The position numbers and the translations under genes are program-made. The notes under the pieces are model-generated. The model had not been told where the DNA came from, searched no databases, and was given only the letters and a program-made list of their open reading frames with translations. Positions 982 through 19,495 of a DNA stretch of 25,769 bases are shown here, one piece after another. Every line of letters starts with the position of its first letter. Positions within the stretch are counted from its first letter, which is position 1. Source of the stretch: a virus; IMG/VR virus record IMGVR_UViG_3300000227_000018, positions 8,370 to 34,138 of that record; one strand, given 5' to 3'.

Positions 982-3240
982 TTAACTAAATTCCAAACAA
1001 TTATTAGTAAATGCTTTAGGTGCATTACTTTTATATATTATATATGTTTCACTTTGACCGTATTGGTTTGTAACAATATTGTTTAAACAACACGAAAATC
1101 CTCCCAATACAGGTGCAGCACCATCCATAATAGCATTTGTTAATTGACCAAATGATTGCGGATATACAATATATGTATATTGATTATCAGGTGCTGTTAA
1201 TAACATTGCTCTTGTTCTAGTTGATAATAATGCTTGATTACCCAAATTTAAAATATCGCTATTTGATAAAACAGTATTTGCATTATACCCATAATACGAA
1301 GCAAATTTCAAATCTATTGTACATATATCACCATTAGATGTCGTATATTCATCAGATACTACTATTCTATAGCCAATATTATTTGCATTAACTGGCGCAG
1401 TGTTATCAATATACGACTGAATTGTATGTGATATACTATTTAAATCATTGCAAACAACCAAATCAACAAAAGCACCATTATCAACACATCTTTGTATTTT
1501 ATATCCAGTTAAATTAACTAAACTTCTATTTGATGATATTGTTCCATTAATATTAGTAATAACATTACCTTTTTCTCTTTCAAACAAGGTTTCGTAAGAT
1601 TGCAAAGTACCAGAATAGTTTGTTGATATATTGGGTTGTTGATATGCTTGAGGATTAACTACAATGGTAGTCATACCGCTACTACCAGCACTATCAATAA
1701 CACAATATCTATAATGTAATGCATTACTATTAAATCTATTAGCACTATCATTTATACTATGATTATATATACTTGGTGTAATTGTGCTATTAGTTAATGT
1801 AGTCCAATTGGGGTCACCAACTCTACAATATTCCAATTTTGCGCAACTAATAGTAGCACCTAATGTTTTAATTTCATAAGAAAATGATAAATCAACAAAT
1901 TTGTCAATTCTACCAAATTCTAAATTAGAATTATTAACATATAAATTCAATAATGGTGGTAATGCTTCAGATAATGCCATTTTTATAACATCAATTGCAG
2001 ATTTTCCACTTGCTGGTATTATATCACCATTGCAATATTTACCAAAAGTTTTACCATTTGCTATACTAACAATAATATCTTGTGTAAATATGCCATCGCT
2101 ACCCAAACTATTTATTAATATTGTATCACCACTTAATGATACTGAAGTATTACCACTACCCAATATTGTTCTTAATTGTGCATTTCTATTTTCAATATTT
2201 TTATAGATAGGAATACCTGCACCAATATTTGTAACACCTGTTAACGATAAGCCACTACCTTCAGGAGAACTAGAATGTATTACAATTCTATCATTATACT
2301 CTATAATATTAGTATCACCGCTACCAATTAATGATTTAAATTTTAATATATTATTATTGCTACCAGCATAAATTTCAGCACCAGCACCAATACTACTAGC
2401 ACCTAATACAGGTGTCGCACCTGAAATATAAACAAAATAATCATCATAACTAATATCAATAAAATCAGGTGTTTTGCTTTTAATTGTTCTTAAATTTATT
2501 GTTGTATTTTGAATATCACGAAATATAGTACCACCGACACTTATCGTATTACCAGTATTTAAACTACCACTAACAGAATCAATAGTGACATACGAACCAT
2601 TGATATATGGTTGTCCACTTAACCATTCATCATTTGAATATGGTAATGATGGTGATATTCCCGTATAATAAGTAACACCATATTGAAATGTACCAACTAA
2701 ATTATCGACATTACCATCAATAAAAATCCAACCACGTAAATTTGAAGATTGTATATAATCATTCCAAATAAAAGATTTATCTTTTATTTTATTATAATAT
2801 CCTCTACGAAAAACATTATCAACATTAGATGAACCAATACGAATATATCCATTTACATCTCTATAATAGTAATTATATAATGATTCATAATTACCATCAT
2901 AGGCATCATTAGTTAAATGATTAATAGGTAAAATTTGAACACCGCTATTACCTAAAAAAAAACCTAAATTAAATACACTATCAACACCACTACTAGAACC
3001 ACCAACGCCAATTTTTTCAATTAAATCACTATCACCAATACCATTCTTATACCAATATTCACTACCAGATATATTTACAGTTAATCCAATATACCTTTCT
3101 GATGGAATTATTGTTGTATTAACTTCTGTTGTTGATGAATATGGTAGATATACACCATTGATTAATCTATTACTTAAATATCTTTTATCCAATGGTGCTG
3201 GTGCTGCTATTTTAATATTTTCATTATATTGTATTGCCAT
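982..3240 (-). CDS. Large phage fibre/baseplate-appendage protein (752 aa)
   Basis: A long, Ser/Thr/Asn/Gly-rich protein with almost no charged helical stretches, as expected for an extended beta-structured fibre. The N-terminus has the EYWYKNGIG phrase common in phage fibre proteins. Residues roughly 160-420 carry several 'SGxT' segments such as LTGVTNIGAGIPIY and SLSGDTILI. Around residues 385-430 comes a recognisable junction, with KTFGKYCNGDIIPASGK followed by a helix and a PP pair. After that come Ig-like repeats, with phrases such as YRYCVIDSAGSSGMT. It starts with ATG only 2 bases after the stop of the 365-aa gene, so the two are probably co-translated. Function as a fibre is inferred; receptor or partner cannot be read. 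Confidence 0.6.
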   Translation of the reverse strand: MAIQYNENIKIAAPAPLDKRYLSNRLINGVYLPYSSTTEVNTTIIPSERYIGLTVNISGSEYWYKNGIGDSDLIEKIGVGGSSSGVDSVFNLGFFLGNSGVQILPINHLTNDAYDGNYESLYNYYYRDVNGYIRIGSSNVDNVFRRGYYNKIKDKSFIWNDYIQSSNLRGWIFIDGNVDNLVGTFQYGVTYYTGISPSLPYSNDEWLSGQPYINGSYVTIDSVSGSLNTGNTISVGGTIFRDIQNTTINLRTIKSKTPDFIDISYDDYFVYISGATPVLGASSIGAGAEIYAGSNNNILKFKSLIGSGDTNIIEYNDRIVIHSSSPEGSGLSLTGVTNIGAGIPIYKNIENRNAQLRTILGSGNTSVSLSGDTILINSLGSDGIFTQDIIVSIANGKTFGKYCNGDIIPASGKSAIDVIKMALSEALPPLLNLYVNNSNLEFGRIDKFVDLSFSYEIKTLGATISCAKLEYCRVGDPNWTTLTNSTITPSIYNHSINDSANRFNSNALHYRYCVIDSAGSSGMTTIVVNPQAYQQPNISTNYSGTLQSYETLFEREKGNVITNINGTISSNRSLVNLTGYKIQRCVDNGAFVDLVVCNDLNSISHTIQSYIDNTAPVNANNIGYRIVVSDEYTTSNGDICTIDLKFASYYGYNANTVLSNSDILNLGNQALLSTRTRAMLLTAPDNQYTYIVYPQSFGQLTNAIMDGAAPVLGGFSCCLNNIVTNQYGQSETYIIYKSNAPKAFTNNCLEFS

Positions 3241-3242
3241 TT

Positions 3243-4340
3243 TTAACTATTTTTAAATGTCATTTGATAATTAATACTTGTAGCATAACGACTAATATAA
3301 AATTTATATTCAATGTTCGACCAATAACCATTTGGAGAATTAATCGATACTATTTGTTCATTTAAGAATAAATCACCGGGAATCGTGCCACAATTAGTTG
3401 GTGAGTTACTACCTTGCCATTTGGTTTTAGTTGTACTACTTTTAGGAATTGCCAACCAAATATATTCACCCGATATATTATAATTATTAACAACAACATT
3501 ATTATTTGATGGTGCAACGCATACATTATTTAACGAATTTGCATTATTAATAAGCGATTGACTTGCAGATGGTGCATTAATACTACTACCCCAATAATAT
3601 GGATACAAACCGCATAAATTTACAGAAGCACCACAACTACCATTAGGACAACAACTATTAACGTTAGTTCCATCACTTTTTTTAGGATATTCACCTGCAG
3701 AATAACAAACTAATACCGATACTGAATTATTGCCATTTTGTATTGTTACCGATGGTAAAGTATTGGTATCGCTTAGTAATGTTGATATTTTCGTATTTTG
3801 TATGCCATTGATGTTTGTATATGTATAACACATTGGTAATCCTGTTCTTGTTGAAGGACCGTTACAATACACAGGACTTACACATCCACGATTGTACGTT
3901 GTATTTGCAGTAATTGCAACACTAGTTCCTACTTCAAAATAAGGATTATTTGGTAACACATTTAATATTGTTGATGGTGGTGTTAATGTTGGTGACATTA
4001 CTGGCACTAATATCCGTTGTAAAATATCAACAACTTTCATATCGCACAAACAAGTATTTAATGAAATGCCACCAACAGCACAAGTTACCTTATCATTATA
4101 TGGATAAACAACATCTACTGTTGATATTGTTGGTTGTGCTAATACTATACACCCATTTTTATATGTAAAAACATCATCATTAGTTTCATTTTCAATTACA
4201 ATTGGAATTCTACCATAATCACCAGTTAATGTTAAACCGCTTTGACTATTAATAATAGTAGTACCACTTAATGTTAACGTACTTCCAGTTAATTGTTTGA
4301 ATTGAATATCATCCAGATTAGGTCTTGCAAAAAATGTCAT
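3243..4340 (-). CDS. Cysteine-rich phage fibre-type protein (365 aa)
   Basis: First gene of the left-hand structural run, downstream of the terminator at 4491-4522. The N-terminus carries 'LTLSGTTI' and 'LTLTGDYG' phrases. A junction around residues 85-125 (VGGISLNTCLCDMK, then a helix and LTPP) parallels the junction in the 752-aa neighbour, so the two share architecture. The rest is Asn/Ser/Tyr-rich beta-type sequence. It holds about 14 cysteines, including SCCPNGSC, which is unusual for a virion protein assembled in the reducing cytoplasm and could mean metal binding. No enzyme motif is visible. The start is ATG 4340; no purine-rich ribosome site precedes it. Confidence 0.6.
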   Translation of the reverse strand: MTFFARPNLDDIQFKQLTGSTLTLSGTTIINSQSGLTLTGDYGRIPIVIENETNDDVFTYKNGCIVLAQPTISTVDVVYPYNDKVTCAVGGISLNTCLCDMKVVDILQRILVPVMSPTLTPPSTILNVLPNNPYFEVGTSVAITANTTYNRGCVSPVYCNGPSTRTGLPMCYTYTNINGIQNTKISTLLSDTNTLPSVTIQNGNNSVSVLVCYSAGEYPKKSDGTNVNSCCPNGSCGASVNLCGLYPYYWGSSINAPSASQSLINNANSLNNVCVAPSNNNVVVNNYNISGEYIWLAIPKSSTTKTKWQGSNSPTNCGTIPGDLFLNEQIVSINSPNGYWSNIEYKFYISRYATSINYQMTFKNS

Positions 4341-4648: not shown

Positions 4649-5035
4649 CTATGCGTCCGTTAAGTCACCTGAACTCCTGCGACCCTCTTTTAAAATATTT
4701 TGTGCTGCAAGTTCGTCTCTTTTATTCACTCTGCCACAAGATTTACAAATCCAAATCCTGTCTGATAACTTTAAGTCATCATTTTTTACACCACACACAC
4801 AAGTTTTACTACTCGCATAAAATCTATTAACTTTGACAACATCTTTCTCATACCATTCAGCTTTATAGATTAACATTGAGACAAATTTACTCCATGAAGC
4901 ATCACTAATAGAACGAACAAGATGATAATTTTTAATCATGCCACATATATTTAAATCCTCAATGAATATTCTATCATAATCATTAATTAATGATGTGATG
5001 TAATTGTGAAGAAACCAATTTCGTTGATTAACTAT
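4649..5035 (-). pseudogene. Truncated TnpB (IS200/IS605 OrfB) relic
   Basis: The minus-strand frame from 5035 to the TAG at 4649 gives 128 residues that match the C-terminal third of TnpB RNA-guided nucleases. It holds the RuvC-II segment (DRIFIEDLN), then GMIKNYHLVRSISDASWS, KAEWYEKDVVKVNRFYASSKTC, the zinc finger (CGVKN, then CKSCG) and the RuvC-III region (KRDELAAQNIL). Only the part after the Met at 4939 has an ATG. An in-frame TAG (5036-5038) and no recognisable sequence upstream show that the N-terminal two thirds are gone; full proteins run near 370-410 aa. The first zinc knuckle is CxC where CxxC is usual, another sign of decay. G/C is 21 of 40 at 4651-4690, far above the surroundings, which points to acquisition from elsewhere. 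No matching tnpA or clear element ends are visible. Confidence 0.88.
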
Positions 5036-9949: not shown

Positions 9950-11185
9950 TTAAAAAGGTAAATCATCTAAATCGTTAATTGATGAATTATATTCAACATT
10001 ATCAATATTTGAATGATATTGTGATCCTTTAATAATATCATTACCAACATCAGAAGCATCATCGTTAAACGTACCAACCTTATTTTCAGTAATATTACTT
10101 ATAGTAACTCTTGGATATTCTTCATCATCATAATCATTAATATCTGATGCATATTCAAAATTATCTTCATCAGAATCTAAATTCCTACCACGTGTATTTG
10201 CTGCTTCTTCCAAATCTGGTCTTCCGGGGAATACCCAATGTTTATTATTCGGGTCAGAATCATCCCAATATGGATTTGCACCATTTGCTAACATTTCCAA
10301 ATATTCATATGGAGTAATATTAGGTGCGCTCTTAGGTTTAAAAACATCTCTCCATGTTGTATTATCATCTAACCATTGTTTCATAACAATAGGGTCATTA
10401 CTTAATGGCGATTTACTTCGATACGTTATGGCAGATATTGATTTATAAACATAACCATTAAATTCACTATCAGTCATAATTATAGTTAAATCCGTACCAT
10501 TAATGGGGTCTGAAAAATCTGCTTGATGTGTTATTGTATATTCTTCTAATATAGGCAATAATTTATCAAGAGTACCCTGATTCTTATAATTATGCTTAAA
10601 TCTCCAGAATTTAACACCATCCTTTTCAGCACCCTTATCAATACCTCGTATTATATAAAATTTCTTCGCTTCCCATTTAATGGCTTCCTTATATATCTCA
10701 TCGTTTTTCGCCTTTATTTTCTTTTGTGCTTCAGTCATATTTTCCTTCTTAATACCTCTAATAGATTGGTCTTGTTTTGCCAATTCCTTTTTATACTTAG
10801 CACATAGCGGACATGGTGCTGGAACTAATACTGGATTTCCATTTTGGTCTAATACTGGCTTACCATCAATTCCAACTTTAGGAACTCTTGGGTCATTATG
10901 AGCAGGACAATAAATTTTAGCACCATACTTCTTCTTACCACCAGAAATAAGAATAGGAACAACATGAAAATAAGCTTCTTCAATATGCCTTTTCCCGGGT
11001 TTTGGTGGTAAAATTCGAAATACTTCTTTTTGCTTTTTCGGCACAAAATACTTAATCAAAATGTCATCAATTGATTTACGTGTCTTCTGATTTAAATTTT
11101 GTTTTTTCTGATAATCAGAAAACAACTTTTTCAAATTTGATAAACTACTCTCTTGAGTAGAGTTACCATCATAAATTTCATTCAT
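9950..11185 (-). CDS. gp32-like single-stranded DNA-binding protein
   Basis: Coats single-stranded DNA during phage replication and recombination. Supporting features are a basic N-terminal region (about residues 20-70), then H74, C93, C125 and C128. This repeats the His-Cys-Cys-x2-Cys zinc-ligand order of T4 gp32, with longer inserts. The KKFYIIRGIDKG and KFWRFKHNYK segments (about residues 175-205) look like OB-fold strands. The last ~80 residues are highly acidic, ending in SINDLDDLPF. That tip resembles the DDIPF ending of bacterial SSB more than the T4 gp32 tail. At 411 aa it is longer than T4 gp32 (301 aa). It has its own ~108-base leader upstream and lies directly ahead of uvsX. Zinc binding is inferred from spacing only. 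Confidence 0.8.
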   Translation of the reverse strand: MNEIYDGNSTQESSLSNLKKLFSDYQKKQNLNQKTRKSIDDILIKYFVPKKQKEVFRILPPKPGKRHIEEAYFHVVPILISGGKKKYGAKIYCPAHNDPRVPKVGIDGKPVLDQNGNPVLVPAPCPLCAKYKKELAKQDQSIRGIKKENMTEAQKKIKAKNDEIYKEAIKWEAKKFYIIRGIDKGAEKDGVKFWRFKHNYKNQGTLDKLLPILEEYTITHQADFSDPINGTDLTIIMTDSEFNGYVYKSISAITYRSKSPLSNDPIVMKQWLDDNTTWRDVFKPKSAPNITPYEYLEMLANGANPYWDDSDPNNKHWVFPGRPDLEEAANTRGRNLDSDEDNFEYASDINDYDDEEYPRVTISNITENKVGTFNDDASDVGNDIIKGSQYHSNIDNVEYNSSINDLDDLPF

Positions 11186-11293: not shown

Positions 11294-12706
11294 TTATTTA
11301 ATAAAATCATTAGATACTACACTAAATGAAATAATTTCTTTATTTTCATATAGATATCCATTTTTCAATCTAATTTGAAGTCGATAATCTTGTGGTATTA
11401 ACCATGTTGTATCTAGATTAAATTCATATCCAAATGCCGTTCTATTTACTTTAGTAAACGGTATAATATCTAATTCATATTTTCTTCCAACAGTAGTATA
11501 CAATCTATATTCAATATCTAATGGAATATTATTGTTTTGATTTGAATAGTATTGTTTAATTAATAATTTAATTTTTCTAATTTCGCCTCTTGAAATATGT
11601 TCACCATCATTAATTCCTTTAAAATTGAAATAATAATTATCAAAATTAAAATCATTTTCATTATTTAACATATAATAATTAATAGATGGTAAAATATAAA
11701 ATTCACCATCATATGTCATGGTAACATCATCAATAGTAACATTCCATTCATCTCTAAATAATACACTATCAGGACACGTTTTAGAATCAATATTAAATGT
11801 TATTTTATAAATCCCAAATGAAACATTATCAATAGAATCACCACTAAATACTGCAACTAAATTATTTTTATAATCATAGATATTTACATAATTTACTACA
11901 ACATTTTTATTTTCATTACCAACTCTAACATATAAGTATAAATCATTATATTTATCCAAATAAAAATAATTTCTATCATCAACAATTGTATCATCAATAA
12001 TTGTTTCGACATATGGTTCATAAAAAGTATTAGTATTCTTAGCATGAAATGCTACTGCTTGTCTATTAAACGGATTTAAATTTTCCAATTCATCAACAAA
12101 TTTTATACCCAAACCATAAGAATCACCACTATATACAATATTATTAGTATTACCACTACCAAATAATCTTTGATTTATATAATCAGTTATATCAATATCA
12201 ATATTTTTATTACCCTTTTCAAAATTTTGAGTTCCAATAATTTCAGAAACACCATTAACATAAGCTCCTTCACTATGCCACAATGCTGATGTTGTTGCTG
12301 AATACCAATTAGATGCTTGTAAAACCACGCCATTATAAATATTGCCAGAATAATCAAAAACATACCCACTTCCTTCATCCCATGGTTGTTTGATATTAAA
12401 AACATCTAATTGAAAACTACTTGCTCTATCAATAGATTGATTATATGATTTTTTACCTAAATATTCCGATGCAAAACTAATTGTATTTGTTAAATGAAGA
12501 ATGTGTTTTTTTATTCTATTTGAATTTATATATCCAATATCAATACGCTTTTTTAATTCTGATAAATCGATATCAAACAAATATCTACTAACTTGTTTAT
12601 CATACGTACCATATGATATTTCAGTTACTGGATTTTGCGAACTATTGGTCTTATTACCACTAATTATGGTATTATTTTTCGAAAAATATGACCTAAATAC
12701 TGACAT
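11294..12706 (-). CDS. Phage virion-type protein, DNRLRE-like start (470 aa)
   Basis: Probably a structural protein. The N-terminus (FSKNNTIISGNKTNSSQNPV, then YGTYDKQVSRYLFDIDLSEL) resembles phage proteins with a beta-rich DNRLRE-like domain. This continues through phrases like QPWDEGSGYVFDYSG and NIDIDITDYINQ, which suit a domain of about 240 residues. The remainder is Asn/Tyr-rich beta sequence (YFYLDKYNDLYLYVR, IPLDIEYRLYTTVGRKY). No enzyme motif or signal peptide is seen. It is first after the terminator at 12740-12768 and so heads the segment with the replication genes, an odd place for a virion gene. A TATTTATA box stands 17-25 bases ahead of its ATG. Confidence 0.6.
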   Translation of the reverse strand: MSVFRSYFSKNNTIISGNKTNSSQNPVTEISYGTYDKQVSRYLFDIDLSELKKRIDIGYINSNRIKKHILHLTNTISFASEYLGKKSYNQSIDRASSFQLDVFNIKQPWDEGSGYVFDYSGNIYNGVVLQASNWYSATTSALWHSEGAYVNGVSEIIGTQNFEKGNKNIDIDITDYINQRLFGSGNTNNIVYSGDSYGLGIKFVDELENLNPFNRQAVAFHAKNTNTFYEPYVETIIDDTIVDDRNYFYLDKYNDLYLYVRVGNENKNVVVNYVNIYDYKNNLVAVFSGDSIDNVSFGIYKITFNIDSKTCPDSVLFRDEWNVTIDDVTMTYDGEFYILPSINYYMLNNENDFNFDNYYFNFKGINDGEHISRGEIRKIKLLIKQYYSNQNNNIPLDIEYRLYTTVGRKYELDIIPFTKVNRTAFGYEFNLDTTWLIPQDYRLQIRLKNGYLYENKEIISFSVVSNDFIK

Positions 12707-12866: not shown

Positions 12867-14390
12867 TTACATCTTTTTTTTTGATTTATAACCAAGCAAA
12901 ATATCAGTCATATTTTTATCAGCATCTTTTATATTCACATTATTTTTTATTGCATCATTTTCATCACTATCGTTTTCAGCATCATTAGATGCACCAAATT
13001 GTGCACTTGATTCAGGGTCTTCTTTTCGTGTATAATATTCAGAATCTTCACTTAAATGGTCTAAAACAATTTCAATAGCAATCATTGGGTCATTGGTATG
13101 TTCCATTTCCACTTTCATGCCTAATTTTATTTGTTCTGGATTAAATTCAAGCGGAGATTTACCATCACCAAGACCACCTTTAATAATTTCCCCTCTTTTT
13201 TTCTTTTCAATTGCCAATTTTTGAACGTAACTTAAATCATCATTATCACTTTCATTCATATATTTTAATACTGTTTTATATGTATGAACAACAATATTTC
13301 GAATTAAATCATAATACTCATTTTTCGACGTATTTTTCAAATTAATTCCTTTATCATTTAAATATTTAATTGCTAATTTAATATAATAATCTTTATCATT
13401 TGCATTATTTAAGTAATTTTTTATCAAATCATCAATATCTACACTTTTTAATTCTAATTCTGATATTGGAATATAATCATATGCCCAATTAGGATATACT
13501 CTCTTCTTACCCTTAGCCATCATATTACCAAAACCTTTAGGTTTTTCTGGTTCATCATTTTTCTTCTTATTTGTTTTTAAAATATTTTCAATTTCCTTAT
13601 CAATTTCATATTTTGTTGGATAGTATTTTGGATTTTTATTGCTTCTATTTTTAGCAATTAAATTATTTACTGCTTGCCCAAAAACATCATCTGAATCATC
13701 ATTACCTTCATCATCATTATTTATATTATAATTACCATATTCAATTGAATTTTTTATTTTTTCATAATCATCCATATCATCATCATTAGATAAATTATGT
13801 ACATCAGCATCACCATAATCAGGTGGTAATGCTAATGGGTCATCAACATTATTATCATTTGAAGTATATTCATCATCCAACCAACTATCCTCATCTTCAT
13901 CATCATATTCATTTATTGATTTTTCAACAATACTATCAATAATACTAATAGTTTCACTATATAATTCATTATTATTTTCTTTATCAAAATCAACATAACT
14001 ATTAACAAATTCAATAATATCATCCCGATGTGTTTCATTAAACTTATTTAAAACAGGCATTTCTTTAGTTAATAAAACATTAAAATCTTTTGATTTATAA
14101 TCAAATTCAATAATATTTGCACTATCAATACCGTAAACACCATCATCAATTTCTTCACCACCAATAACATTAAATTTAAAAAAAACTTTATTATTATTAT
14201 CATCAGTAGCTAAAATTTCAACGTCATTTACATTATTATTAACTTTAGTTTTAACTAATTGTATTTTCATTTTATTGTTTATTAATTTATTAAACAATTT
14301 ATCTAATAAGGTTTCGTATAATGAATTTTCATTAATTGAAACTTTATTTAATTTTTGAAATAACTCATACATTCTATTTTTCTTTTCCAT
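12867..14390 (-). CDS. DUF5661-like phage protein with INE leader (507 aa)
   Basis: Function unknown. The N-terminus KNRMYELFQKLNKVSINE closely parallels that of the next upstream gene and ends in I-N-E (residues 19-21), which fits the (L/I)xE cleavage pattern of T4 prohead protease. The middle (about residues 150-240) is very acidic and low in complexity (DDEDEDSWLDDEY). A conserved stretch follows (KRVYPNWAYDYIPISELELK, about residues 300-320, then helices to ~385). Near residues 405-455 lies GGLGDGKSPLEFNPEQIK and VEMEHTNDPMIAIEI, which I recognise as DUF5661-like. The C-terminus is charged and disordered. It starts 11 bases after the upstream stop, so the two genes are probably in one transcript. 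A packaged internal protein is my inference. Confidence 0.7.
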   Translation of the reverse strand: MEKKNRMYELFQKLNKVSINENSLYETLLDKLFNKLINNKMKIQLVKTKVNNNVNDVEILATDDNNNKVFFKFNVIGGEEIDDGVYGIDSANIIEFDYKSKDFNVLLTKEMPVLNKFNETHRDDIIEFVNSYVDFDKENNNELYSETISIIDSIVEKSINEYDDEDEDSWLDDEYTSNDNNVDDPLALPPDYGDADVHNLSNDDDMDDYEKIKNSIEYGNYNINNDDEGNDDSDDVFGQAVNNLIAKNRSNKNPKYYPTKYEIDKEIENILKTNKKKNDEPEKPKGFGNMMAKGKKRVYPNWAYDYIPISELELKSVDIDDLIKNYLNNANDKDYYIKLAIKYLNDKGINLKNTSKNEYYDLIRNIVVHTYKTVLKYMNESDNDDLSYVQKLAIEKKKRGEIIKGGLGDGKSPLEFNPEQIKLGMKVEMEHTNDPMIAIEIVLDHLSEDSEYYTRKEDPESSAQFGASNDAENDSDENDAIKNNVNIKDADKNMTDILLGYKSKKKM

Positions 14391-14401
14391 AAAAAAATTT
14401 T

Positions 14402-15139
14402 TTATTCAAATATATCTGGATTTATTTTTCCGTAATTTCTTAATATAATACCCGCTAAATAATTAGCCTCATTTTCTTGTTCGCTACCAGTTTCTCCCGA
14501 ATTTAATTTTAAATTACCATCAATTTTTTGCTTATAATGTACCATTTCATGCGCTAATGTTCTTAAAACATCAGCTAAATTTCTATTTTTTATAACAACT
14601 GAAATTTCATCATTATTTAAATCAAAACTACCAAAAGAACGTCTTTTCTTTGCTTCATTTTCTAAATTTAACAATTTAATTTTTGGTAAATTATTCCCTA
14701 AATTAATGTAATCAGAAACATATTTAACAAAATCTTTAATTATTTTAATTTTTTTTTTAATTTTTATTTGTTCATTAACATTATCATATTCCTCGTCAAC
14801 ATCATCAATTTTGATTAATCTATTTTTAAACATTGTAATCAAACTACCATCATCTAATTTTACAGCTACCTTATTATTCCAATCAATTGGTTTATATACA
14901 CCTTCAATATTTACTGGTATACCACTACCATCAGTTTTTACTTCTCTTGGTGATACAACAATACCCGTTTTATTTGAATACAATCCACTACCTGAAGTAA
15001 CTTTAACCCTAGTACCAATAGGAAACGATATTCTATTTTCAGATAATATCTTATCAGAATAAATATGTGTCTCATTAATACTTATTTTATTTACATTTTC
15101 ATATATTTCAAAAAATCTATTTTTATTACTTATTTTCAT
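14402..15139 (-). CDS. HExxH zinc metallopeptidase-like phage protein
   Basis: The frame can start with TTG at 15145, but the ATG at 15139 is the likelier start and gives 245 aa. The leader KNRFFEIYENVNKISINE (residues 6-23) matches the next gene's and ends in I-N-E, a possible prohead-protease site. Residues ~38-108 look like a small KOW/SH3-type beta domain (GTRVKVTSGSGLYSNKTGIV). The C-terminal half has LAHEMVHYKQ (H197, E198, H201) and, about 20 residues on, QENEANYLAG, fitting the third zinc ligand of ImmA/IrrE-type zincins. Zinc binding is likely but the substrate is unknown. Possibilities are a virion-packaged peptidase injected into the host or a head-maturation helper. It overlaps nothing but sits in a tight run of four genes. 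Confidence 0.72.
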   Translation of the reverse strand: MKISNKNRFFEIYENVNKISINETHIYSDKILSENRISFPIGTRVKVTSGSGLYSNKTGIVVSPREVKTDGSGIPVNIEGVYKPIDWNNKVAVKLDDGSLITMFKNRLIKIDDVDEEYDNVNEQIKIKKKIKIIKDFVKYVSDYINLGNNLPKIKLLNLENEAKKRRSFGSFDLNNDEISVVIKNRNLADVLRTLAHEMVHYKQKIDGNLKLNSGETGSEQENEANYLAGIILRNYGKINPDIFE

Positions 15140-15151
15140 AATCAATAATAT

Positions 15152-15772
15152 TTAATCATAATCATAATATGTTTTTTGTATATCAATATTTGACAATTTA
15201 GGTAAATCATCAAAATCTGCAATATATGAACCATCAGGTAATTGCTTAATACCACTATTATTATTTCGATTGTATTTCATGCTGAACCAATTATTCGACC
15301 ATAAATCATTTAAATTAAAATAATATGGATATGATACTTCTTTTTTATTAATTAATTTTTCACCATTGGTTGGTTCACGCACTTCTTCAACATCATTTTT
15401 TAAATTTTCTAATTTAACATTTAAATTATCAATTGTACTATCTAAACTTTCTAATTTATTATAGATTAATTTCATTGCTTCAATATTATGTTTTATGATT
15501 TCATTTTGAATCACATCAACATTATTGATATTTTCAACAGAATTAATATCTAAATTATTATTCGCTGTATTATCAAACGCAGGTTGTGGTGTTTTTGCTG
15601 GTTTACCAACATTATTGACATTTGAAATGTTATTCACATTATCATTATCGATAGAATTATTCGCCTCTGTAGTAATTTTAGGTATTTCATCAAATACTTC
15701 ATTACTATCAACTAATTGACGATATCTTGGTGTTTCATTAATAATATAATTACTACGATATTTAATCTTCAT
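15152..15772 (-). CDS. Coiled-coil phage protein with INE motif (206 aa)
   Basis: Function unknown. The start MKIKYRSNYIINETPRYRQL has I-N-E at residues 11-13, as in the two following genes, though without the rest of their leader. Residues ~25-80 are low-complexity and Asn-rich (repeated NNV/INNV). Residues ~85-135 form heptad-like helix (MKLIYNKLESLDSTIDNL, then VKLENLKNDVEEV), likely a coiled coil. The C-terminal ~65 residues are conserved-looking, with WSNNWFSMKYNRNN and DGSYIADFDDLPKLSNIDI. It ends 12 bases before the next gene's ATG. A structural or packaged internal protein fits the neighbourhood, but no motif proves it. Confidence 0.65.
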   Translation of the reverse strand: MKIKYRSNYIINETPRYRQLVDSNEVFDEIPKITTEANNSIDNDNVNNISNVNNVGKPAKTPQPAFDNTANNNLDINSVENINNVDVIQNEIIKHNIEAMKLIYNKLESLDSTIDNLNVKLENLKNDVEEVREPTNGEKLINKKEVSYPYYFNLNDLWSNNWFSMKYNRNNNSGIKQLPDGSYIADFDDLPKLSNIDIQKTYYDYD

Positions 15773-15824: not shown

Positions 15825-16022
15825 TTAATATCTTTCTCTTAATAATTGTCTACCATCAGAAGTAACAAAAATTTTATCAATACGCTCAATCAAACCTTCA
15901 CGTTCTTTAATAATAACATTTTTTGATTTTGCATCTTTTTTTAATAATTCATCATTTATTTGATTATTATCATCAAAACTATTCAAAAATTTGTTAATAG
16001 CATCATTAGCATTATTTTCCAT
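15825..16022 (-). CDS. Small conserved phage protein (65 aa)
   Basis: A short protein with an acidic, Asn-rich first half and a compact C-terminal part, EGLIERIDKIFVTSDGRQLL, ending RERY. I recall this 'R(I/V)DK..(V/L)T.DGRQLL' ending from short proteins in T4-like phage genomes, but not with any function. It is first of the run 16022-12867, starts with ATG 16-24 bases downstream of a GTATTTATA box, and ends 52 bases before the coiled-coil gene. The length and clean start make it a genuine gene despite its size. Confidence 0.7.
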   Translation of the reverse strand: MENNANDAINKFLNSFDDNNQINDELLKKDAKSKNVIIKEREGLIERIDKIFVTSDGRQLLRERY

Positions 16023-16080: not shown

Positions 16081-16716
16081 TTATTGAGTTACTATATATC
16101 TTTTAAGAAAAGTATAATTTGGTAAAATTTTTGAATATTTAATATAAACATTCCCGTCTAAATCATCAATATATTTCGATGTTCGATTACAAAAAATATT
16201 AATGATATCAGAAACATTAAAATTAAAAAAACTATACATAATTATATCAACACCCCATATTTTATCATTTTTTAATACATATAACATTTTGTTTTTATAA
16301 TTATAGACTCTATCAAAATCAGGGGGTAATTTAACAATTAAATCATTTAAATTTTTTATTTGAAAAAAAACAGGGTCTAAATTAATATATTGATAATTAA
16401 ATTCAAAATATATATTAGGTGCAATTTTAACAAAATTTTCAATACCATTAATATGTGATGTTTTGTTTTCATCAAAACTATATTCCCAATACAACTTATT
16501 TTTTAAAATTTTTTTATCTAAAATATCTGCATTTTGTATTATTACATTACTTAAATTACATTTTTTCATAAAAGACCAACCAACATATAATGTTGGCAAA
16601 TTCTTAATTACAGTTACTAATTTATTATATTCTAATGGTTCATTATAATAGTTAATGTATTCAACCATATCATGATTAACCAATTCGTTTTCGTATATAA
16701 TATTAGCAATTTTCAT
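16081..16716 (-). CDS. Unknown protein coupled to hldD (211 aa)
   Basis: I do not recognise a named family. The protein is a mix of short strands and helices with many aromatic residues. Distinctive phrases are NLPTLYVGWSFMKKCNLS (about residues 39-56), KNKLYWEYSFDENKTSH and GIENFVKIAPNIYFEFNYQY, then a C-terminal SDIINIFCNRTSKYIDDL segment. There is no signal peptide, membrane segment or nucleotide-binding loop. Its ATG lies inside the end of hldD (14-base overlap), so it is translationally coupled to the heptose operon and is its last gene. That could mean a role in the sugar pathway. It could equally be an unrelated phage gene placed downstream. Confidence 0.72.
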   Translation of the reverse strand: MKIANIIYENELVNHDMVEYINYYNEPLEYNKLVTVIKNLPTLYVGWSFMKKCNLSNVIIQNADILDKKILKNKLYWEYSFDENKTSHINGIENFVKIAPNIYFEFNYQYINLDPVFFQIKNLNDLIVKLPPDFDRVYNYKNKMLYVLKNDKIWGVDIIMYSFFNFNVSDIINIFCNRTSKYIDDLDGNVYIKYSKILPNYTFLKRYIVTQ

Positions 16717-17611
16717 TTTCTAATTGATTAATATATTCAAAAATACCTTGTTCAATACTATAAAAATTATTATAATAACCAATTTTTCTTAATTTATTAA
16801 TTTTTGCTTCAGTATAATACTGATATTTATTTATTATATTTTGAGGCATATCAATATATTTAATATTTACATTTAAATTCAACGTATTAAATATTGCTTT
16901 AACAACATCATTATATGTTCGTGAAATACCAGTACCAACATTATAAATTCCATTTGGTGGTGTATTATTTATAAAGAATAAACATACATTAATCAAATCG
17001 TTAATATATATAAAATCTCTTTTTTGTTCACCATCTAAAATATCATCACGATACGATTTAAATAATTTAACAATATTATTTTTTTTTATCTGTTTATATG
17101 CCTGTAAAATAAATGATGACATATTACCCTTGTGTTCCTCACCATATCCATACACATTAAAAAATTTCAAACCATACCAAAATGGCGGATATTTTTTTTG
17201 TTTCATTACGTATAAATCAAAATTTTGTTTCGACCAACCATATAAATTTAGTGGATTTAATTTAAATATTGGTTCTTCATCATCAAAACCAAATTCACCA
17301 TCACCATAAGTAGCAGCAGAACTTGCATATATCAACGGTATTTTATTTTCAACACATAAATTCCAAATATATATGGATGAAAATAAATTATACATTTTAA
17401 ATCTTTTATCATCATCCAATGTGGTATCAGTAATTGCTCCAAAATGAATTATAAAATCAATTTTTTTTGCATAATTATATAACCAATATAATATATTAGC
17501 CAAATTATCATTTTTAATATCCAAAGATATAACATCTAATTGACCAGTATCATTTAATTTTTTTATTAAATTCGAACCAATAAATCCCAATCCACCTGTT
17601 ACTACAATCAT
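16703..17611 (-). CDS. hldD: ADP-heptose 6-epimerase (HldD/RfaD)
   Basis: Converts ADP-D-glycero-D-manno-heptose to the L-glycero form, the last step before transfer of heptose to a glycan. It is a short-chain dehydrogenase/epimerase: TGGLGFIGSN (residues 5-14) is the NAD(P)-binding turn, ASSAATYG (96-103) holds the catalytic Ser/Thr region, and Y124xxxK128 (YGWSK) is the active-site pair. The family signature FFNVYGYGEEHKGNMSS (150-166) and LDGEQKRDFIYINDL are diagnostic of HldD within the epimerases. Length, 302 aa, is near the usual ~310. Its ATG overlaps the stop of the adenylyltransferase gene (ATGA). The preceding genes supply the kinase and nucleotidyltransferase of the same pathway. 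Confidence 0.92.
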   Translation of the reverse strand: MIVVTGGLGFIGSNLIKKLNDTGQLDVISLDIKNDNLANILYWLYNYAKKIDFIIHFGAITDTTLDDDKRFKMYNLFSSIYIWNLCVENKIPLIYASSAATYGDGEFGFDDEEPIFKLNPLNLYGWSKQNFDLYVMKQKKYPPFWYGLKFFNVYGYGEEHKGNMSSFILQAYKQIKKNNIVKLFKSYRDDILDGEQKRDFIYINDLINVCLFFINNTPPNGIYNVGTGISRTYNDVVKAIFNTLNLNVNIKYIDMPQNIINKYQYYTEAKINKLRKIGYYNNFYSIEQGIFEYINQLENENC

Positions 17612-18039
17612 ATTTGTCTTATTTTATTAATTATGTTAGTTGTTGACATACTATTTTTTATTGGATAAAAAATAACGCCATGTTTAGCAAATTCAGAACC
17701 AATAACATTTTTATCCTTATAATGGTCACCTATTATAATATAATCAACTTCAAAAAGTTTAATAAAATTCCTCAAATCGTTATCACTATCAAAAACCACA
17801 ACTCTATCAACCATTTTTAAATTTGAAATTATTTTTGCTCTTGTTCTATAATCTAAAATTGGTCTATCATTACCTTTCATTTTTTTTATTCTTTCATCGC
17901 TATCAATACCAACTATTAATTTATTAACATTATATTTATTTAAATCATATTCATTTGTATTATATAATTTAGCATACCATAATAAATCAATATGCCCTAA
18001 ATGTAATAAATCAAAACATCCATTTGTCCAAATAATCAT
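17608..18039 (-). CDS. rfaE2: Heptose-1-phosphate adenylyltransferase (HldE C-domain)
   Basis: Joins D-glycero-beta-D-manno-heptose 1-phosphate to a nucleotide to give the activated sugar. The start MIIWTNGCFDLLHLGHIDLL has the HxGH motif (H13-L-G-H16) of the cytidylyltransferase fold. VGIDSDERIKKMKG and RPILDYRTRAKII match the family core, IIGDHYKDKNVIGSEF the 'GxDY..' region, and SMSTTNIINKI the closing signature. In E. coli this domain is fused behind the kinase in HldE; here it is a separate 143-aa protein, a split form also known elsewhere. Whether it uses ATP or CTP cannot be told from the sequence. It overlaps both neighbours by 4 bases (ATGA) and ends in TGA. Confidence 0.9.
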   Translation of the reverse strand: MIIWTNGCFDLLHLGHIDLLWYAKLYNTNEYDLNKYNVNKLIVGIDSDERIKKMKGNDRPILDYRTRAKIISNLKMVDRVVVFDSDNDLRNFIKLFEVDYIIIGDHYKDKNVIGSEFAKHGVIFYPIKNSMSTTNIINKIRQI

Positions 18040-18320
18040 AATTCATTAATTTTTATTGCTTTATCATCAATAATATAATCATAAGATAATTTATTAAATC
18101 TTAATTCATGGTATAAACAACCCCAATCCGTTAATTGCTTTTTTGTTAAATTACTCCAATCAATTCCACTTTTACCGCCTCTTGCAGTCCAATAAATAAT
18201 ATAATGCCCATTAACATATAAATCATTTATTTTACGTATATTATCAATAATTGGTGTTGCTTTTTCATAGCCATATTCGCTATTACAAATTGTACCATCA
18301 ATATCAACACAAAATATCAT
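18036..18320 (-). CDS. Small HAD-family phosphatase (94 aa)
   Basis: A minimal haloacid-dehalogenase fold enzyme: VDIDGTICNS at the N-terminus carries the nucleophile D6 and acid D8, YWTARGG gives the motif II Thr (T45), and YIIDDKA (D85/D86/K87) fits motifs III-IV. Related short HAD proteins with 'WTARG..SGIDW..LT' occur in polysaccharide clusters. In this operon it may remove a phosphate in heptose synthesis, the GmhB step between kinase and nucleotidyltransferase. GmhB itself is about twice as long (near 190 aa) and has a zinc loop, which is absent here, so this is inference from context. It sits 3 bases after the cupin gene and overlaps the adenylyltransferase gene by 4 bases. Confidence 0.8.
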   Translation of the reverse strand: MIFCVDIDGTICNSEYGYEKATPIIDNIRKINDLYVNGHYIIYWTARGGKSGIDWSNLTKKQLTDWGCLYHELRFNKLSYDYIIDDKAIKINEL

Positions 18321-18323
18321 ACA

Positions 18324-18701
18324 TTAACAATTTTGTGTATCACCACCAATAATACGATAACTATCATTCACATCATCATATGTACTGACTTCAAAAATTT
18401 CAGATTCTTGTAATGCTTCCAATCTATGTGCAATACCTCTGTTAATTTCAACAACATCACCCTCATTTAAATTTTTCTCAATAACATCACCATTATCAGG
18501 ATTTATTGTAATTAATATAAAATTTCCTTTTGTAACATAAAACGTTTCTTTTTTATTAACATGATAATGCAAACTTCCTCTACCACCATCATTAAAATGT
18601 AAAATTTTACCGCAATATTCATTCATTTCATTATGAATTACCAATTCATAACCCCATCCCTTTTCAATTTTTTTTGGTTGTAATATTTCTATATTTCTCA
18701 T
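18324..18701 (-). CDS. Cupin protein, phosphomannose isomerase type II-like
   Basis: A single-domain cupin of 125 aa. The lead KKIEKGWGYELVIHNEMNEYC resembles the 'KPWGYE' start of the cupin domain of type II mannose-6-phosphate isomerase. The metal ligands are in place: H45 and H47 (SLHYH), E52 (KKETFYV) and H92 (GIAHRLEA). Such stand-alone cupins are common in sugar-nucleotide operons, often with isomerase or epimerase roles on sugar phosphates, but the exact reaction cannot be read. It may stand in for a step whose usual enzyme (GmhA) is missing here; that is speculation. The ATG overlaps the kinase stop (ATGA), and the gene ends with TAA. Confidence 0.82.
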   Translation of the reverse strand: MRNIEILQPKKIEKGWGYELVIHNEMNEYCGKILHFNDGGRGSLHYHVNKKETFYVTKGNFILITINPDNGDVIEKNLNEGDVVEINRGIAHRLEALQESEIFEVSTYDDVNDSYRIIGGDTQNC

Positions 18702-19495
18702 AAATATTTAATTTTATTAATATCAATCACTGTAACACCCTTTTTACTAACAACCCAAGATGCACATAAATTAGCAAATTTTACTGCACCACAAATATTA
18801 TAATTTTTAATATAATCTGCAACAAAAGCAGCAAAAAAACTATCACCAGCACCGCTTAAATCTCTGACTTCTAATTTATTTTCAATTGAAATGATTTTAT
18901 TATTAAAAGATTCTTTTATATTTATTATCATTGCACCATCACCACCCAATGTTACAATTATAGTACCATCATAACTATTAATAAATGATACATCAATATT
19001 ATCATTAAATTCTTTTTTATTTATTTTTATAAATTTTATTTTTTTTGCCCAATCGCCAATTTTTTTTTTAGTATCTAAAAAAGTTAATTGGTGATTATTA
19101 GAAATATATTCAATTTGTTCTTCATTTAAGAATCCCTTATTATAATCTGAAATAACAATACCATCATAATTATTATATTGAATATTTTTTAATACATTCC
19201 AATCAATAGGATTTACTTTATCATCAATATCTAACCTTAATAAAATTTGATTTGATTGTTCATCAACAAATCTAATTTTTTTTGGCATTAATTCATTAAT
19301 ATCATTTGTATAAATATCAACATTAACATTTAAACCTTTTAAATTATTATAAACATTCATTGCCATACCTTCATTTTCAATAACACGTGTTGGTGTTATT
19401 ATTGGTACTGGTGCTTCTGGTGATAATCTATCACATTTTCCATATTGAAAAATATCATTACAACTATCTCCAATAACTAAAATTTTTTCACTCAT
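18698..19495 (-). CDS. rfaE1: Heptose-7-phosphate kinase (HldE N-domain)
   Basis: Phosphorylates D-glycero-D-manno-heptose 7-phosphate at C1. It is a PfkB-family kinase: the start ILVIGDSCNDIFQYGKCDRL, then SPEAPVPI (residues 25-32), is the HldE signature, where GD..LD..Y.G...R.SPEAPVP is normal. The usual GGAANVA turn is changed to EGMAMNVYNNL. The closing DLSGAGDSFFAAF contains the GAGD anion hole and catalytic Asp. Length, 265 aa, is below the ~310 residues of the domain in E. coli HldE, with shorter loops in the middle. It is the first gene of the heptose operon, with about 100 bases of A/T-rich DNA between it and the interrupted glycosyltransferase, and it overlaps the cupin gene by 4 bases. 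Confidence 0.87.
   Translation of the reverse strand: MSEKILVIGDSCNDIFQYGKCDRLSPEAPVPIITPTRVIENEGMAMNVYNNLKGLNVNVDIYTNDINELMPKKIRFVDEQSNQILLRLDIDDKVNPIDWNVLKNIQYNNYDGIVISDYNKGFLNEEQIEYISNNHQLTFLDTKKKIGDWAKKIKFIKINKKEFNDNIDVSFINSYDGTIIVTLGGDGAMIINIKESFNNKIISIENKLEVRDLSGAGDSFFAAFVADYIKNYNICGAVKFANLCASWVVSKKGVTVIDINKIKYL

Follow-up and report, generated by a model that had tools for sequence, protein, structure and literature searches.

The DNA analyzed here (the window, 25,769 nucleotides) comprises bases 8370-34138 of the 34,138-base IMG/VR record IMGVR_UViG_3300000227_000018. It is AT-rich and encodes T4-type replication proteins, namely a DnaB-like helicase and a UvsX-like recombinase. The source record is a fragment of a T4-like phage, an uncultured virus of bacteria. 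Our interest was in three consecutive genes, termed A, B and C, which all lie on the minus strand where a first-pass annotation had placed them (Table 1). From an N-terminal leader ending in INE this annotation had proposed that the three products are sorted into the head and possibly injected, in the manner of the T4 internal proteins.

Table 1. Features of the A-B-C locus. Positions are those of the window; HMM, hidden Markov model.
Feature	Position	Strand	Basis or detail
Upstream gene of the syntenic block, conserved; KIANIIYE... family	16081..16716	-	gene-order comparison
Conserved 65-residue gene of the syntenic block	15825..16022	-	gene-order comparison
Gene A: short N-terminus to IINE, acidic proline-rich/coiled middle, conserved C-terminal domain	15152..15772	-	homologue alignment
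N-terminal part of gene A, MKIKYRSNYIINE; end motif of the same type on another leader	15734..15772	-	
Gene B: leader, KOW-like insert of about 100 residues, zinc metallopeptidase domain	14402..15139	-	
Leader of gene B, MKISNKNRFFEIYENVNKISINE	15071..15139	-	predicted cleavage after Glu23; leader HMM E=1.6e-7
KOW-like insert of gene B, between leader and peptidase	14780..15070	-	phrog_13329 on residues 37-61; alignment gap
Zinc-binding motif HEMVH at residues 197-201 of gene B	14537..14551	-	alignment of 17 sequences
Gene C: leader, long acidic variable body, DUF5661 near C-terminus	12867..14390	-	
Leader of gene C, MEKKNRMYELFQKLNKVSINE	14328..14390	-	predicted cleavage after Glu21; leader HMM E=2.6e-4
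DUF5661 domain of gene C, residues 419-457	13020..13136	-	PF18905 E=1.7e-6
Conserved gene downstream of C (MSxFRSYF... family)	11294..12706	-	gene-order comparison

Genes B and C begin with a common leader, KNR(F/M)(F/Y)E(I/L)xxxx(N)K(I/V)SINE, whose 18 residues keep the same spacing in both genes. Aligned to each other by Smith-Waterman, the two leaders score 74, and the highest score among 20,000 shuffles is 53. The window contains the DNA pattern of the leader at exactly two places; the pattern is absent from all 100 dinucleotide shuffles. The bodies behind the leaders lack significant similarity to each other (best E 0.59), which bears out the claim that the same leader precedes otherwise unrelated proteins. 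Alignment of gene C homologues gave a mean majority identity of 0.71 for the leader vs 0.42 for the body, and in L056, L061, L062, L064 and L073 the same leader is followed by bodies with little or no similarity to gene C of the window. The KOW-like insert of gene B is located precisely at the junction of leader and peptidase and is missing from the other 15 homologues, all from huge phages. Because the body drifts or changes behind the leader and the gene B insert sits at this junction, the leader behaves as a module. The genome scan proposed along with the original claim gave two leaders in the window and no further leader gene in the 8.4 kb upstream in the same record, which is a fragment.

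The proteins that follow these N-termini differ in character. Gene B is supported as a putative HExxH zinc metallopeptidase, possibly of the minigluzincin type. H197, E198 and H201 as well as the downstream glutamate (E222, that of ENEAN) are invariant in 17 sequences, and PHROG 87 (phrog_87, metallo-protease) matches 14/16 members of the gene B family, which strengthens the zinc-peptidase reading given in the first-pass annotation. The predicted peptidase domain covers residues 125-245 with a mostly high predicted local distance difference test score (pLDDT); its best fold matches are minigluzincins (selecase, jannalysin) and Wss1, and these matches are weak (E 3e-3 to 3e-2). Gene C has a long, acidic and variable body with an isoelectric point (pI) of 4.6. 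In gene A the IINE motif occupies residues 10-13, and all 20 of 20 homologues keep a [ILV]xE site at this place; its usual form is (I/L/V)(N/S)E with (S/T)P.YR behind it.

We wondered how widely the leader is distributed. Since single-sequence searches of IMG/VR with gene B or the DnaB helicase of the window gave no direct relatives, relatives were obtained via a degenerate leader pattern. In 2.9 million IMG/VR viral contigs this type-1 DNA pattern had 23 matches, 22 of them within 20 residues of a protein start, with the consensus MKIY..GSKERLFEMMxxVNKVxLNE. Many of these matches lie on contigs of 100-371 kb. The same pattern had a single match in 84,980 bacterial and archaeal genomes, antisense and not at a protein start. 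Relatives with the leader and the same gene order are found on contigs of up to 371 kb. Their order is a KIANIVYE gene, a gene of ~60 residues, A, B (HExxH), C and a MSIFRSYF gene, followed by a conserved counterpart of window 9950-11185 and a UvsX-like gene; additional leader genes are inserted into this block in L063, L067, L069 and L074.

A genome-wide profile search of three large relatives revealed a sister leader, type 2 (MKKDSKQRLFEVMGRLDKTFKPKLNE; pattern RLFEVMxRxDxxFKxxLNE), on other genes. All of its 79 matches in IMG/VR (79/79) start 5-8 residues after the ATG, and they precede at least 14 unrelated body clusters, the commonest body being an acidic coiled protein. In the relative G009 the profile search detected at least 10 open reading frames (ORFs) with a leader. 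Among the bearers are a P-loop kinase (AAA_33, E 5e-23), an ART-PolyVal ADP-ribosyltransferase (E 4e-8), a cupin and a second metallopeptidase-like protein (HELVH). (L/I)NE closes the leader in most bearers; the DNA patterns for the leaders themselves required NE, and a few leaders detected by HMM lack it.

The recurrent (L/I)NE end links the leaders to head maturation. T4 gp21 cleaves after L/I-X-E (PMC9026906), and a protease of this type had been named as something to look for. The gp21-type S77 prohead protease (PF03420) is present in 10/12 leader records longer than 100 kb, that is, in relatives of the window record, and gp23 (PF07068) is found in 11 of these 12 and in 11/14 further leader records. 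The pro-sequence of gp23 is predicted to end in ..ENQL(S/T)(Y/H)MINE before (S/A), at residue ~60; this predicted site is invariant in 21/21 phages, and when aligned by eye the region after MINE falls on the N-terminus of mature T4 gp23. The MINE end thus matches the (L/I)NE end of the leaders. At their N-termini the gp21 proteins retain an ILIE site and one more [ILV]xE site, and T4 gp21 itself has a LIE-9 site near its N-terminus (PMC9026906). When all ORFs were ranked by their excess of [ILM]NE, a core-like protein encoded near the terminase came 1st in G009 (7 seen vs 0.84 expected) and 2nd in G012 and G014. In these last two genomes the highest rank falls to an ORF for a large NE-rich protein (G012 283083-286091, 12 seen vs 1.4 expected; G014 105734-108172), perhaps an internal head protein that is cleaved at several points.

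An independent parallel case is provided by Prevotella phage Lak-B9, which has its own, unrelated leader (M....KKxLYESIMKSVSKTVKKKLNE) on several unrelated proteins. Its gp23 pro-sequence ends in ..TAKLNE before DAF, matching the end of the Lak leader. One of the bearers, with a leader ending in KLNE, is a sigma-70 factor (L279:537-1550; Sigma70_r2 E 1.3e-11), which is predicted from its sequence to be packaged and injected.

Taken from the sequences are the modular N-terminal leader, the match to the gp23 motif, the protease and shell genes of the relatives, the gene order and the putative peptidase active site. Based on these we consider it probable, with good confidence, that the leader is a capsid-targeting propeptide that directs its bearer to the head and is cleaved there; we infer core docking, cleavage, presence in the virion and injection. 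As the head assembles, the helical part of the leader (RLFEMMxxVNK) would dock to the scaffold core within the prohead, taking the bearer along. Next, the gp21-type protease of the prohead would cut after the terminal (L/I)NE, the same enzyme and motif being used as in gp23 maturation, and the cleaved protein would stay in the head together with the DNA. Some leader proteins may subsequently be injected from the head into the host cell. The zinc peptidase of gene B would be the foremost candidate for an enzyme carried as cargo into the host along with the DNA, and we rate the chance that it is injected as even. The products of genes A and C would more likely be internal core proteins or abundant internal proteins.

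Several observations weigh against a packaged and cleaved set of three proteins. The first-pass annotation had counted three genes with an INE leader. This holds for B and C; gene A shares the IINE motif but was rejected as a bearer of the B/C leader, as its first 30 residues are no closer to that leader than shuffles. The large acidic product of gene C may be part of the core and not cargo for injection. Neither gp21 nor gp23 of the window's own phage is contained in the record fragment. The type-2 site is mostly followed by G, E, D or N, as opposed to S/A in gp23. Four leader proteins of G009 detected by HMM (96570, 97106, 51703 and 319196) have no clear NE end, and cleavage is therefore not universal. 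We found no virion proteomics for any of the leader phages, and none for the nearest isolate, Flavobacterium phage immuto, in the paper checked. The leaders also show no similarity to the T4 capsid-targeting sequence (CTS) MKTYQEFI(A)E (MKTYQEFIAE); T4 records confirm that an internal head protein of T4 starts with MKTYQEFIAEA. As a separate observation, the P-loop kinase and the ART-PolyVal ADP-ribosyltransferase in the head region of G009 (L129:16570-17576) have the leader helix and no clear NE end, as if targeted without cleavage.

Alternatively, the leader could be a sorting or docking tag for another part of the virion (baseplate, tail or neck) or for an intracellular assembly site, with NE belonging to a docking helix instead of a protease site. 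Genes A-C do adjoin a conserved possible virion protein (11294-12706) and replication genes rather than a head cluster, and some leaders lack NE. We nevertheless regard this as improbable, since in two lineages whose leaders are unrelated the leader end matches the site predicted for gp23, and the type-2 leader genes of G009 and G012 map within or close to the head cluster (terminase, portal, gp21, gp22, gp23); T4 tags, too, separate targeting from cleavage (PMC9026906). Even less credit is due to a local duplication of a gene start that gave B and C their leader without any sorting role. B and C are neighbours, and tandem leader pairs are frequent in the relatives, but related leaders occur on many unlinked and unrelated genes, and the leader stays conserved even where the body diverges.

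A third possibility is a variant of the capsid-targeting reading itself, in which A and C are scaffold or core proteins that are destroyed or lost at maturation, like T4 gp67/gp68, and only B is retained as cargo. A and C are acidic (pI 4.1-5.1) and B ranges from mildly acidic to basic (pI 5.1-8.9); gene C bodies hold about twice the expected number of [ILM]NE sites (26 vs 13.8), and the commonest type-2 bearer, the acidic coiled protein, is encoded near the terminase genes in G012. On the other hand, the excess in C is small and gene A bodies show none (3 seen vs 5.6 expected). Gene B bodies have no general [ILM]NE enrichment. We judge this variant a serious contender, at slightly below even chance.

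The proposed capsid-targeting leader resembles known systems in part. Like the CTS of T4 IPI-IPIII and Alt, which is cut by gp21, it is a short N-terminal propeptide on unrelated proteins that ends in L/I-X-E; a gp21-family S77 protease and gp23 are encoded in the same genomes, and an ADP-ribosyltransferase (cf. Alt) is among the bearers. Unlike the T4 tags, whose propeptides measure 10-19 residues (PMC9026906), the leaders are longer (about 20-27 residues, helix plus (L/I)NE), their x is nearly always N, they occur on many more types of bearer and their lineage comes from uncultured huge phages. Because the searches showed no homology to the T4 tag, we regard the system as a variant of the T4 capsid-targeting principle and not as a homologous member. 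The analogy drawn in the first-pass annotation is partly supported and agrees with nearly all of the sequence tests: it stands for the modular N-terminal leader, for gp21 and gp23 in relatives and for the MINE site, and falls for homology to the T4 tag and for the leader of gene A. The inner-body and ejection proteins of phiKZ/SPN3US, which are processed by gp175/gp245, are similar in that N-terminal propeptides of head proteins are removed after glutamate by an S77-like protease; these propeptides, however, are mostly long (111-254 residues in SPN3US), have no common tag and belong to another phage lineage (PMC10052503). ART and metallopeptidase domains have also been proposed as packaged and injected in the polyvalent phage proteins described by Iyer, Burroughs and Aravind (PMC5512222). 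Those proteins are large and multidomain without a described common head-sorting leader, whereas in the phages described here single domains bear the leader. We found no earlier description of such leaders in huge phages in the open-access papers searched.

Virion proteomics, the usual way to learn which proteins a phage injects, is impractical when huge phages are uncultured. Should the leader prove to be a head-sorting tag, sequence alone would suffice to list candidates for injection, among them enzymes and a sigma factor that could reprogram the host at once. We lean slightly towards the broader idea that huge T4-like phages run a general ‘zip-code’ system, in which any gene can yield a packaged and injected protein through a start of ~25 residues. 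In that case, an arsenal of peptidases, a kinase, an ADP-ribosyltransferase and a cupin, as well as the sigma-70 factor in Lak, would be delivered with the DNA before phage gene expression, and the injected proteome of uncultured phages would be readable from sequence. A natural 25-residue tag could also serve for loading proteins into large capsids.

Isolated phages were also analyzed. A tblastn search with the leader of B and the type-1 leaders against 50,697 phage records gave no match, and the type-2 query matched only Lak and one Vibrio phage (E 3-4). In Synechococcus phage S-SRM01 the gene adjoining the peptidase homologue starts with a T4-type tag, MKNFHQFITEA. The nearest isolate by gp23 is the Flavobacterium phage immuto, in which repeated short starts (e.g. 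MENFDLKKFLVENKLTTNSKILKE) occur just upstream of the head genes. The gene run in question (L168:12295-28932, upstream of terminase and portal) shows the repeated starts MENFDLKKFLVENKLT.NS..LKE and MKKSQLRQIIKEAL, which are possibly head-targeting tags of this phage's own; one gene of the run has a stretch resembling DUF5661. An assignment of the relatives to the bS21 Bacteroidetes phages was rejected, bS21 being present in 0/10 records.

Further features were noted around the locus. The gene at window 9950-11185 had no family match in the domain search, and its likeness to a gp32-type single-stranded DNA-binding protein lies in position and length only. ADP-heptose-pathway-like genes (HldE-type kinase and nucleotidyltransferase, epimerase, HAD phosphatase) were recognized by eye beside the block at window 16703-19495, and similar ones flank it in several relatives (by eye). 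A short ORF at window 4649-4939 looks, again by eye, like the C-terminal zinc ribbon of a transposon protein of the TnpB/OrfB kind and is an apparent remnant. Window 982-4340 and L002 encode several tail-fibre-like paralogues with nearly identical repeated modules, which suggests recombination of fibre genes.
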